IMG/VR virus record: IMGVR_UViG_3300036985_003956
Coordinates: 1-41,230 of that record
Reading direction: 5' to 3' (one strand)
From: a virus
DNA: 41,230 bases
Made by a program: the position numbers and the translations under genes
The notes under the pieces: generated by a model
Databases searched by the model: none
Seen by the model: the letters and a program-made list of their open reading frames with translations, nothing else
What the model was told of the DNA's origin: nothing
In this document: positions 4,647-39,374 of the stretch, in pieces
Layout of the letters: each line of letters starts with the position of its first letter
How positions within the stretch are numbered: position 1 is the first letter of the stretch

Positions 4647-5225
4647 TTAAAGATTGAATTTATCATGTTTAATAAATTCCACTTGTTCTGGTTGATAATA
4701 TGGTCTATTCTTACAATATTTCTTAAACTTTTCCTCTCTTTTTTGTCTATGCTTAAACTCTAAGAATTTAAAACGAATTTGCAAATAACATTTAAATTTA
4801 TCTATTTTAAATCCCGGTATTGTTAAATAAGATTTTACTCTATTTACTTTTTTCAATATAGTTAAATATCTTCTTTTTTTTAAGTCTGGAAAAGTTAATA
4901 ATTGTCTTTCTAAAAAATCTTTAATTGGCTCTTTATTCCCGGAAAGTTTATATCTTATTATTATAAATCCAAAAGAAGATAAGTACTCATCTCTATATTC
5001 ATCTCTAATTTGAGTAGGTTTTTTATTATGTACTGCTCCATCAATTTCAATAATAATTCCTTTTTTAGGAATAGCTATATCGGCGATATACGGGGGGATA
5101 GCATATTGGGGATTAAACTCTATCCCCCAAGACGATAGTATGCTATAAAATTTCTGTTCATATAAATTATTCTTTTTAAATTGTTGTTTTCTATACATCA
5201 TTGTTCTTTCGGTCGTATTCATCAT
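4647..5225 (-). CDS. DUF559 / Vsr-like PD-(D/E)XK endonuclease
   Basis: 192 aa. IPPYIADIAIPKKGIIIEIDGAVHN carries the D...E-x-D core of DUF559/Vsr-like enzymes, followed by RDEYRDEYLSSFGFIIIRY. The C-terminal half is lysine-rich and probably binds DNA. Phage members are thought to be homing or nicking enzymes. No clear ribosome site precedes the ATG; expression may be coupled to the leader ORF ending 13 bases upstream. Confidence 0.8.
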   Translation of the reverse strand: MMNTTERTMMYRKQQFKKNNLYEQKFYSILSSWGIEFNPQYAIPPYIADIAIPKKGIIIEIDGAVHNKKPTQIRDEYRDEYLSSFGFIIIRYKLSGNKEPIKDFLERQLLTFPDLKKRRYLTILKKVNRVKSYLTIPGFKIDKFKCYLQIRFKFLEFKHRQKREEKFKKYCKNRPYYQPEQVEFIKHDKFNL

Positions 5226-5237
5226 AAATTTATTATA

Positions 5238-5399
5238 TTACAAAATAAATAATCCACCGGCAAGCAGGACAAACTTACCTCCGTGGGGGAGGCTGCCGAC
5301 CGGTGGATTACACAAAATAAAATCCGGCGCGAATAAATTCATATTCCTCGTCGGATTCTGGTTTTTGTTTGATTTTTCATAGTTTGTCATTTTTCTCAT
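5238..5399 (-). CDS. leader ORF A overlapping an attenuator-like hairpin (53 aa)
   Basis: Starts at ATG 5399 behind GTGGGGATGAAA and ends just beyond the hairpin at 5251-5309. Its C-terminus (FILCNPPVGSLP..., AGGLFIL) is simply the translation of the hairpin and T-run. A closely similar arrangement is at 39189-39320. It probably acts as a leader peptide rather than a working protein. Frame openings continue to 5423. Confidence 0.45.
   Translation of the reverse strand: MRKMTNYEKSNKNQNPTRNMNLFAPDFILCNPPVGSLPHGGKFVLLAGGLFIL
5251..5309 (-). terminator. attenuator-like hairpin in the DUF559 leader
   Basis: Perfect 10-bp outer stem AATCCACCGG/CCGGTGGATT (5251-5260 with 5300-5309) and inner stem CCTCC/GGAGG (5278-5282 with 5288-5292). 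Read leftward it is followed by ATTTATTTTG, a weak U-tract, then the DUF559 start. The outer stem is a palindrome in either direction. Confidence 0.65.
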
Positions 5400-5428
5400 T
5401 TTCATCCCCACGATGAACAGCAAATAAA

Positions 5429-5456
5429 ATTATAATACGATTTTCGGAAATGTCAA
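5429..5456 (-). promoter_or_regulatory. strong sigma-70-type promoter for the DUF559 leader
   Basis: -35 TTGACA (5451-5456), 16-bp spacer, -10 TATAAT (5429-5434), both matching consensus. The leader ORF starts about 30 bases downstream. Confidence 0.8.
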
Positions 5457-5764: not shown

Positions 5765-5816
5765 TTTTATTCCCTCCAATTTAAGCCGGGGACGCGGTCG
5801 CCCGGGTGGGTTAATA

Positions 5817-6389: not shown

Positions 6390-6448
6390 TTTGTTCCCCC
6401 CTTGCTCCTGGCATTTTGTGGGCGACCTCGTGTCCCCCATCTAATACA

Positions 6449-6477
6449 ATAATACCACAGCCGGTTGGGTTTGTCAA
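6449..6477 (-). promoter_or_regulatory. early promoter 2 with operator motif in the spacer
   Basis: -35 TTGACA (6472-6477), 17-bp spacer, -10 TATTAT (6449-6454). The spacer half next to the -10 is ACCGGCTGTGG (plus strand CCACAGCCGGT, 6455-6465), identical to the site in early promoter 1. Confidence 0.75.
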
Positions 6478-6673: not shown

Positions 6674-6702
6674 AGTATACCACAGCCGGTGCAGATATGC
6701 AA
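6674..6702 (-). promoter_or_regulatory. early promoter 1 with operator motif in the spacer
   Basis: -35 TTGCAT (6697-6702), 17-bp spacer, -10 TATACT (6674-6679). The bases abutting the -10 are the same ACCGGCTGTGG as in early promoter 2 (plus strand 6680-6690), placed at exactly the same offset. Confidence 0.75.
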
Positions 6703-6728: not shown

Positions 6729-6739
6729 CCTCAGCCGGT
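6729..6739. promoter_or_regulatory. third copy of the operator-like motif
   Basis: CCTCAGCCGGT differs by one base from the CCACAGCCGGT copies at 6455-6465 and 6680-6690. It lies upstream of early promoter 1 and no clear promoter overlaps it. Confidence 0.45.
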
Positions 6740-37851: not shown

Positions 37852-38454
37852 TTAGCCTCCTATTTTTTTAACTACTTCGGTTAAATCAGAACAGAAATTT
37901 TGAAGCTCAACAGCAAGTATGCTCTGAAATTGTTTGTTCGGTTCAACGCGGATGATAAACGGTTTTATTCCCGGATAGTATGAACAGAAATCCACATATG
38001 CTCGTCCAGTAACAAATAATTGACCGTTTACTTGCAAAAAATATTCCGTAGGTAACTTGTTTTCCATTAAGTACGATACATGGGTTTCCGGTTTCGGACA
38101 TTTAATTTCCAGTAATCCATCGTCATCAATCAACCCATCCGGGCTGGCTCCAACGATAAAATCTCCTTCGGTTACGCAGAATCCTACCTGCACTATTGAC
38201 TTACCGGAAATAACCTCATACAACTGCCGGGCTTCCGATTCTGTTTCTACACCTTTCAGCATCGCCGCACTCTGATACGTTTCTTCTGTCCTACCCGCAA
38301 TTCTTTCAGCCGATAATTGATACATATACTTTTCACGAGAAGCAGAACGCTTTCCGGTAGTGGTAATTATTTTGTCAAAACATGATGATGTGGGAATCCC
38401 AAGTCTTGCTAAATACCATGAAGTTTCACCTTGTACGCAATCAATAACTCTCAT
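37852..38454 (-). CDS. YqaJ-type viral recombinase exonuclease (200 aa)
   Basis: YqaJ/lambda-exonuclease fold: WYLARLGIPTSS at the N-terminus; catalytic GASPDGLIDDDGLLEIKCPK with D, E-x-K; YFLQVNGQLFVTG (Q in the motif-III helix) and FCSYYPG. It degrades one strand of double-stranded ends so that ERF can anneal. Overlaps ERF by four bases. Confidence 0.9.
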   Translation of the reverse strand: MRVIDCVQGETSWYLARLGIPTSSCFDKIITTTGKRSASREKYMYQLSAERIAGRTEETYQSAAMLKGVETESEARQLYEVISGKSIVQVGFCVTEGDFIVGASPDGLIDDDGLLEIKCPKPETHVSYLMENKLPTEYFLQVNGQLFVTGRAYVDFCSYYPGIKPFIIRVEPNKQFQSILAVELQNFCSDLTEVVKKIGG

Positions 38455-39176
38455 TTCGCCACCTTATTTTTCTTCTTATTCTGCAAGGCAATCATGGCTT
38501 TCTGGTAATCTTCTTTCGGGAGTTCTTCGAGTTTTTCCACTTTGAGATATTTAAAAAATACCTCATTTTCTTTGGCTGATAAATTAAGTTCAGCCAGCAG
38601 GTCAAGGATTGCGTTACCTTGCTCTTTGGTGATATACTCAACCGCTTTTTGACCTGATGCTCTACCGTCATCATCCATATCCTCGGTAGCAAGTCCGGTC
38701 AAAGCAAGCAAAGTATAGCGTTCAAGATAGGTAATTGTTGACCCTATAGCCTGTATGGAGTTTTTAGATCCGCTGGAATCAGCCGCCGCCGAAAGAGTGG
38801 TTTCTTCGCTATGCCCTTGCATATGAGTTATCCGGCAAGTAACCATAATAACCTCGTTTTGTTTGGTAGTCCACGACGCAGAAAGACCATGCTTGCTAAG
38901 CTCCGCACCGATTTTCTTTGTTACATTTCCCAGGGAAGCATGATTATAATGTGTGTTCCCATAAGAAACTTTTTTGTCCTTATCAATCTCCGGCGGGTTA
39001 GCTTTAAAATTAGCCATCGCCTTATGGTATGACTTCCGTGCTTCGTTTGCATCAAACCTCTCTTTTATCTCAAGCAGTTTTTCCAACTTAGAAAGGTCAA
39101 CCCCTTTGTCAATCGCCATTTCAATTAAACTGCTTGGCGACTTTCCCACCTCAATTATTTCTTTTTTGTCTTCCAT
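38451..39176 (-). CDS. erf: ERF-family single-strand annealing protein
   Basis: 241 aa. MANFKANPPEIDKDKKVSYG, then YNHASLGNVTKKIGAELSKHGLSASW and IGSTITYLERYTLLALTGLATEDMDDDG are ERF signatures. C-terminal helical domain. It anneals strands made by the exonuclease, usual for phage recombination and concatemer formation. GGGGAGG precedes ATG 39176, right after leader B. Confidence 0.92.
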   Translation of the reverse strand: MEDKKEIIEVGKSPSSLIEMAIDKGVDLSKLEKLLEIKERFDANEARKSYHKAMANFKANPPEIDKDKKVSYGNTHYNHASLGNVTKKIGAELSKHGLSASWTTKQNEVIMVTCRITHMQGHSEETTLSAAADSSGSKNSIQAIGSTITYLERYTLLALTGLATEDMDDDGRASGQKAVEYITKEQGNAILDLLAELNLSAKENEVFFKYLKVEKLEELPKEDYQKAMIALQNKKKNKVAK

Positions 39177-39188
39177 CCTCTACCTCCC

Positions 39189-39320
39189 CTAAAATAAAAA
39201 TGCCTCAGCCGGGACAATAAAGATTGCTCTGCCAGAAGCTCCCGGACTGAGGCGATTAGACAAAAAAATACCGGCGAGGTTTTCTTTCTCGTCGGTTAGA
39301 TTGTCGGTGTAATTTCTCAT
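39189..39320 (-). CDS. leader ORF B overlapping an attenuator-like hairpin (43 aa)
   Basis: AAGGGATAAAAA precedes ATG 39320. The C-terminal half (GIFLSNRLSPGASGRAIF...) is read through the hairpin at 39202-39253 and ends in the T-run. It has the same plan and partly alignable ending as leader ORF A at 5238-5399. Probably a regulatory leader peptide for the recombination operon. Confidence 0.5.
   Translation of the reverse strand: MRNYTDNLTDEKENLAGIFLSNRLSPGASGRAIFIVPAEAFLF
39202..39253 (-). terminator. attenuator-like branched hairpin ahead of the ERF operon
   Basis: Stem GCCTCAG/CTGAGGC (7 bp) stacked on CCGGGA/TCCCGG (6 bp) with one bulged base; inside are CAAT/ATTG and a GCT..AGC hairpin. 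Leftward it is followed by ATTTTTATTTT, then the ERF ribosome site. Strong enough to end or pause transcription. Confidence 0.7.
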
Positions 39321-39345
39321 TTTTTATCCCTTCTGGCAATGGTTA

Positions 39346-39374
39346 AATATAACATGGAATTTATGGTTTGTCAA
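39346..39374 (-). promoter_or_regulatory. promoter of the recombination operon
   Basis: -35 TTGACA (39369-39374), 17-bp spacer, -10 TATATT (39346-39351). The -35 lies in the end of the upstream gene. Leader ORF B starts 26 bases downstream. Confidence 0.8.

Follow-up and report, generated by a model that had tools for sequence, protein, structure and literature searches.

How expression of a phage nuclease gene might depend on the leader in front of it is the question raised by a short segment of a virus record. The window, the whole stretch of DNA analysed, is 41,230 bases long; its terminase, portal and capsid genes lie on the plus strand and its replication and recombination genes on the minus strand. 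Also on the minus strand is a gene for a DUF559 nuclease (4647-5225; Pfam DUF559, 5e-12). An earlier note, made from the sequence alone, had described a consensus promoter, a short ORF, a hairpin and a T-rich run in front of this gene, had read them as a transcription attenuator controlled by leader translation, and had pointed to a repetition of the plan at 39189-39374. All the features of the two leaders given below, and the genes that they precede, are on the minus strand.

Architecture of the two leaders

Leader 1 begins with a sigma-70-type promoter, TTGACA-16-TATAAT (5429-5456), which agrees with the consensus at 12 of 12 positions and is the only such match in the window. The ORF that follows (MRKMTNYEKSNKNQNPTRNMNLFAPDFILCNPPVGSLPHGGKFVLLAGGLFIL; 5238-5399) runs for 53 codons from an ATG at 5399 to a TAA at 5240-5238 and spans two hairpins; the probability of its remaining open through the second of these, the terminator-like hairpin T, was 0.07 in shuffled sequences. 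The first hairpin, T1 (AATCCGACGAG..CGCCGGATT), lies within the ORF together with a U-tract located upstream of T (TTTTATTTTG; 5313-5357, with the U-tract at 5322-5313). Hairpin T occupies positions 5241-5310. The perfect stem of 10 bp claimed earlier was found to extend to 11 bp, still perfect (TAATCCACCGG, T5', 5310-5300; CCGGTGGATTA, T3', 5260-5250); inner stems and the tail TTTATTTTG (U-run 5249-5241) accompany it. Overlapping palindromes aside, every other near-perfect inverted repeat of the window is shorter than this stem, and no hairpin there has a stronger predicted energy than this one (-33.9 kcal/mol); the fold of the entire leader reached z = -4.6 (0/200 shuffles). The nuclease gene starts at an ATG at 5225, 13 nt past the leader stop codon, and, as had been said of it, bears no ribosome site of its own (no Shine-Dalgarno match, SD score 0). 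Homologues of the DUF559 protein were sought in viral contigs and none was found.

Leader 2 precedes a gene for an Erf ssDNA-annealing protein (38451-39176; PHROG 155, 3e-39). Its promoter, TTGACA-17-TATATT (39346-39374), agrees with the consensus at 11 of 12 positions and has an extended -10 TG. The ORF (MRNYTDNLTDEKENLAGIFLSNRLSPGASGRAIFIVPAEAFLF; 39189-39320, ATG at 39320, TAG at 39191-39189) has 43 codons before the TAG, and its chance of being open through T was 0.19 in shuffles. As in leader 1, T1 (ACCGACGAG..CTCGCCGGT) and the U-tract ATTTTTTTG upstream of T (39269-39261) are within the ORF (39261-39296). T and its U-run lie at 39191-39253, with T5' at 39253-39241 and T3' at 39213-39202; its energy is -27.3 kcal/mol, and only one other minus-strand hairpin of the window is stronger. 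The repetition of the plan is confirmed, with promoter, ORF and T all present. It does not extend to the strength of the entire fold, which is not exceptional (z = -1.65) and is weaker than that of leader 1, nor to the downstream gene, since erf has its own Shine-Dalgarno sequence (AGGGGAGG).

Both leaders thus present, in this order, a promoter, an ATG start codon with an SD-like site, an ORF, an in-frame U-tract, a strong terminator-like hairpin T, a stop codon that begins 10-13 nt 3' of T and ends 13-14 nt past it, and the next gene. The T1 hairpins have CCGACGAG...CGCCGG in common. Two features had been overlooked in the first reading: T1, a second terminator-like hairpin, with its U-tract in each ORF, and the antisense character of the T loop, which in both cases complements the region in which translation of that leader starts. 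In leader 1, arm A5'a (CGTGGGG, 5406-5412), containing the purine-rich ribosome site before the ATG, has an exact complement in the T loop (A3'a, CCCCACG, 5288-5282), and A5'b (GACAAACT, 5381-5388, codons 4-7) has an exact complement of 8 nt, AGTTTGTC, at 5275-5268 (A3'b), a match attained by 35 of 5000 shuffled loops. In leader 2, A5' (TTGCCAGAAG, 39330-39339) overlaps the ribosome site AGAAGGG and is complementary to CTTCTGGCAG in the T loop (A3', 39238-39229); the complement of 9 nt was matched in 43 of 5000 shuffled loops. Because the antisense arm is enclosed by T while its partner lies upstream, the two helices would cross as a pseudoknot, and this antisense of the leader's ribosome site, carried by the terminator loop, alters the mechanism first envisaged. 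Neither leader peptide contains a run of regulatory codons of the trp or his type. A classical antiterminator helix sharing an arm of T is also absent, the long-range helix using the T loop and leaving the T arms free.

Leaders of the same plan in other phages

When known phages were searched by blastn with leader 1, three other leaders (L003, L005, L047) and two leaders of the class b described below, only one partial match of 49 nt was obtained; an exact-pattern search for the shared leader motif gave five chance matches, and a tighter pattern gave none. As homologues were reached neither by blastn nor by exact patterns, phages related by their Erf protein were fetched and scanners for the plan were written, the sample comprising these phages and further DNA from 50 of those records. 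A scan for a promoter, an SD, an ORF of 33-66 codons and a terminator inside the ORF found eight leaders, versus 2, 2 and 1 in null sets. An ORF-free scan, based on a promoter, a terminator hairpin and a complement of the start region in the T loop, found eight leaders with a frame stop 3-30 nt past T, whereas ten null sets generated with order-2 Markov models averaged 0.3. About ten further leaders of the same plan were found in other, unrelated environmental phages. The frame stops past T in L213/L003, L216/L005, L047, L235 (at 10184), L223 and L244, continues into the next gene in L210 and L016, and ends within the T loop in L226. A set chosen separately, by HNH, contributed two more members, L321 and L325 (at 11963). 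No leader with all of the features sought was present in ∼1.1 Mb of other phage contigs (L090-L209) plus 0.3 Mb of other loci (L290-L311), and YqaJ and bacterial-genome loci contained no members. Part of the set referred to below as class a was selected by use of the complementarity.

The leader peptides are not conserved among members. Three other interpretations were considered and rejected: programmed -1 frameshifting at the U-tract (only some members have the heptamer in the frame required), an ArfA-like non-stop mRNA (no peptide similarity was seen) and a SAM riboswitch, which the L005 loop resembles in appearance (Rfam gave no match). A search for a U-run with ATGYCTAAA was dropped as a diagnostic, as it returned mostly ordinary terminators; in L097, L107, L113, L127, L140, L160 and others a terminator U-run is followed by ATGYCTAAA, which is the search pattern itself.

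Covariation and self-pairing of the crossing helices

The leaders at position 13908 of L235 and in L321 could be aligned, and a profile search then yielded further copies, several per phage. This sister class, class b, comprises nine distinct alignable members built in the order promoter, first helix with a purine-rich sequence resembling a ribosome site, U-tract GAUUUUUUAUUG with YCUAAAA, T5', CUUAACCG and the returning strand of the first helix, followed by CYGAA, T3', the U-run and the beginning of the next gene. A lack of covariation in homologues had been named earlier as something that would refute the reading; class b gave the contrary result, with strong covariation in both crossing helices: 85.4% of the cells are paired, 18 of the 20 pairs have changed on both sides, and 42 cells are compensatory. 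None of 500 shuffles reached any of these measures, and slid controls gave 42-53%. As judged from the alignment, the two helices have therefore co-evolved. The window leaders share with class b the promoter, the pseudoknot between the start-region helix and T, the U-tract and the adjacent next gene. A covariance model of class b (R1) recovered class b copies and not the window leaders, at E values up to 5, and so the pair was placed in the looser class a, which is defined by a shared plan and not by alignment.

Open frames cross T in seven of the nine class b members, so that translation through T is not universal. Six of the nine frames stop 16-25 nt past T (two of them use AUU or GUG starts), and three have no stop just past it. 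The T helix of class b is short (5-8 bp) with a loop of >40 nt, and alone would be a weak terminator. Most class b RNAs (e.g. L329:9548-9659) also have an RGUA/GAAA internal loop, resembling the loop E (sarcin-ricin) motif, between T and an upper helix of 3-4 bp. The gene downstream is of HNH type in eight of the nine, as assigned by Pfam or by sequence pattern, and codes for a phage replication-type protein in L317; because several members came from an HNH search, this link is partly one of ascertainment. L210, L016 and L235, which originated from the Erf search, likewise precede HNH-type genes. The HNH genes of class b have their own SD outside the pseudoknot. In L325 (4520-12100), four leaders, three of class b and one of class a, are clustered within 8 kb, and at least three of the four precede HNH-type genes.

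The unpaired stretches conserved in class b (GAUUUUUUAUUG, CUUAACCG and CYGAA), together with the internal loop, would suit an RNA switch bound by a protein or a ligand (a riboswitch or an antitermination site), and the ORF would then be incidental. These stretches are absent from the window leaders, however, ORFs crossing T have been kept in most members, and no Rfam family matches: with the Rfam 15 covariance models, nothing reached the gathering score in the window or in five class b loci, and only sub-threshold eukaryotic or chance families appeared at E values up to 5. Such a switch appears rather unlikely.

Pairing was also compared among leaders by swapping loops. Among 21 elements of both classes, 17 had a start-region arm that paired better with the own T loop than with any of the 20 loops from the other elements, and none of 100000 permutations matched the total pairing. 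The own loops of the window leaders ranked only 4th and 7th, so the support that each receives individually is modest. For six class a leaders picked without the complementarity, both window leaders included, the own pairing was the best of 720 permutations. These results bear on a further alternative, a small expressed protein gene with incidental hairpins, or hairpins arising by chance near promoters. The good ribosome sites, the ATG starts and the F- and L-rich endings of the peptides would suit a protein gene, yet the peptides are not conserved, both covariation and swap tests require pairing of the RNA, and the null scans gave 0.3 matches. We regard this alternative as very improbable.

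The swap test also touches the possibility that a small RNA is at work: the terminated leader might, through its T loop, silence other copies of the leader in trans, in the manner of the P4 CI or P1 c4 RNA, and so provide immunity-like or copy-dependent control. Promoter and terminator delimit an RNA of about 150-180 nt with a loop antisense to a ribosome site, and in Gifsy-1 a terminated leader RNA, IsrK, acts on its own read-through mRNA (PMC4825925). The best pairing is nevertheless with self, even where a phage has several leaders, and pairing in cis explains the data equally well; action in trans as the leaders' function seems unlikely, if a shade less so than the RNA switch.

Candidate mechanism and relation to known systems

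Ribosome-controlled attenuation is textbook knowledge for amino-acid and pyrimidine operons; to our knowledge, it has been little described in phages. A ribosome that follows closely behind RNA polymerase suppresses a terminator located inside or beside an ORF, the model case being pyrBI (PMC5021804, PMC4824070). On balance, each of the leaders is probably a cis-acting, ribosome-licensed transcription attenuator that masks itself. Termination at T, its opening by a ribosome, masking in the cell and the direction of control are what we infer from the arrangement. With transcription beginning from the leader promoter, the ribosome site would be the first part to emerge. A ribosome loaded before the T loop is synthesised would trail the polymerase through the ORF and hold T open, allowing the polymerase to enter the downstream gene; the ORF ends 10-25 nt beyond T, and in the case of DUF559, which has no ribosome site, the ribosome may move on to the next start codon, at a distance of 13 nt. 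Should a ribosome fail to arrive in time, the antisense in the T loop would pair with the leader start region and T would close beside the U-run, releasing the polymerase and leaving a short RNA shut to translation. The U-tract before T probably slows the polymerase, and the outcome would depend on which comes first, the loading of a ribosome or the synthesis of the T loop. Attenuation by leader translation, as originally suggested, is accordingly retained as the best reading, and the plan recurs beyond chance; a regulatory codon run and a classical antiterminator hairpin are missing from it.

The same parts might work with the opposite sign: the start-region helix would form first and block T, acting as an antiterminator, so that translation of the leader would promote termination and poor translation would turn the gene on. 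The antisense arm is indeed made before T3', and the first helix of class b measures 15-17 bp with a connector to T3' of only about 7 nt, which would make for a strained pseudoknot. However, with the antisense placed in the T loop, both arms of T are free, unlike in classical antiterminators, and frames that continue through T to a stop codon shortly beyond it fit better with opening driven by a ribosome. Reversed control is thus unlikely, although the foremost of the alternatives considered.

Of the devices already known, the E. coli pyrBI attenuator (pyrL leader) comes closest; its leader length and U-rich pausing are established features. It likewise has a short leader ORF running through an intrinsic terminator, a U-rich tract upstream, a stop just after and the target gene next, and it has in common with the mechanism favoured here that the coupled ribosome opens the terminator (PMC5021804, PMC4824070). 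It differs in serving a host pyrimidine operon, and its terminator loop is not known to contain an antisense of the leader ribosome site; its sensing of UTP cannot be assumed for the phage leaders. Antisense to a ribosome site within the same leader transcript, coupled to premature termination as proposed here, is found in the P4 CI RNA and the P1/P7 c4 RNA. Those RNAs act in trans and terminate through Rho, whereas the terminator of the present leaders looks intrinsic. IsrK/orf45 of Gifsy-1 is also a prophage leader with a promoter, a terminator, a read-through form, a short ORF and alternative RNA structures that switch a ribosome site, but it terminates before orf45 and its short RNA activates in trans (PMC4825925). 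The hairpins of the T4-type genes I-TevI, segB and mobE resemble the leaders in that RNA structure over a ribosome site restrains phage endonuclease genes; there, the endonuclease's own site is hidden in a local hairpin (PMC2988022), while in the phage leaders it is the site of the leader ORF that is predicted to be masked, by the terminator pseudoknot, and the gene itself has either an unobstructed site or none. In the literature, pyrBI, IsrK and the T4 endonuclease hairpins were found as related systems and the present device was not, which is weak evidence because only open papers were covered. The leaders are filed here as a variant of ribosome-controlled attenuation outside any named family.

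We tentatively suggest that they may belong to a widespread, uncatalogued kind of phage leader RNA, in which the terminator carries an antisense of the leader's own ribosome site and one pseudoknot decides both translation and transcription. Such an RNA could be a portable switch responding to ribosome availability, often accompanying homing endonuclease genes and possibly acting in trans on sister transcripts. A recurring, covarying leader without an Rfam match, with masking of a ribosome site tied to a terminator, offers a concrete switch that is easy to test; it is relevant to how phages restrain nucleases and recombination genes, and to the control that mobile endonuclease genes carry with them.

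Other elements of the window were noted in passing. At 32443-31792 on the minus strand, a TTGACA-17-TATACT promoter lies immediately 5' of an HNH_3 endonuclease gene, with no leader element. Two minus-strand promoters (6449-6477 and ∼6678-6691) have ACCGGCTGTGGTAT in common between -35 and -10, and a third such sequence, CAGCCGGTAGGGTAT, is close by at 6733, the repeats being operator-like and located in a control region. Finally, two GC-rich segments ∼640 bp apart, GGGGACGCGGTCGCCC (5786-5805) and GGGCGACCTCGTGTCCCC (6424-6440), are nearly complementary.
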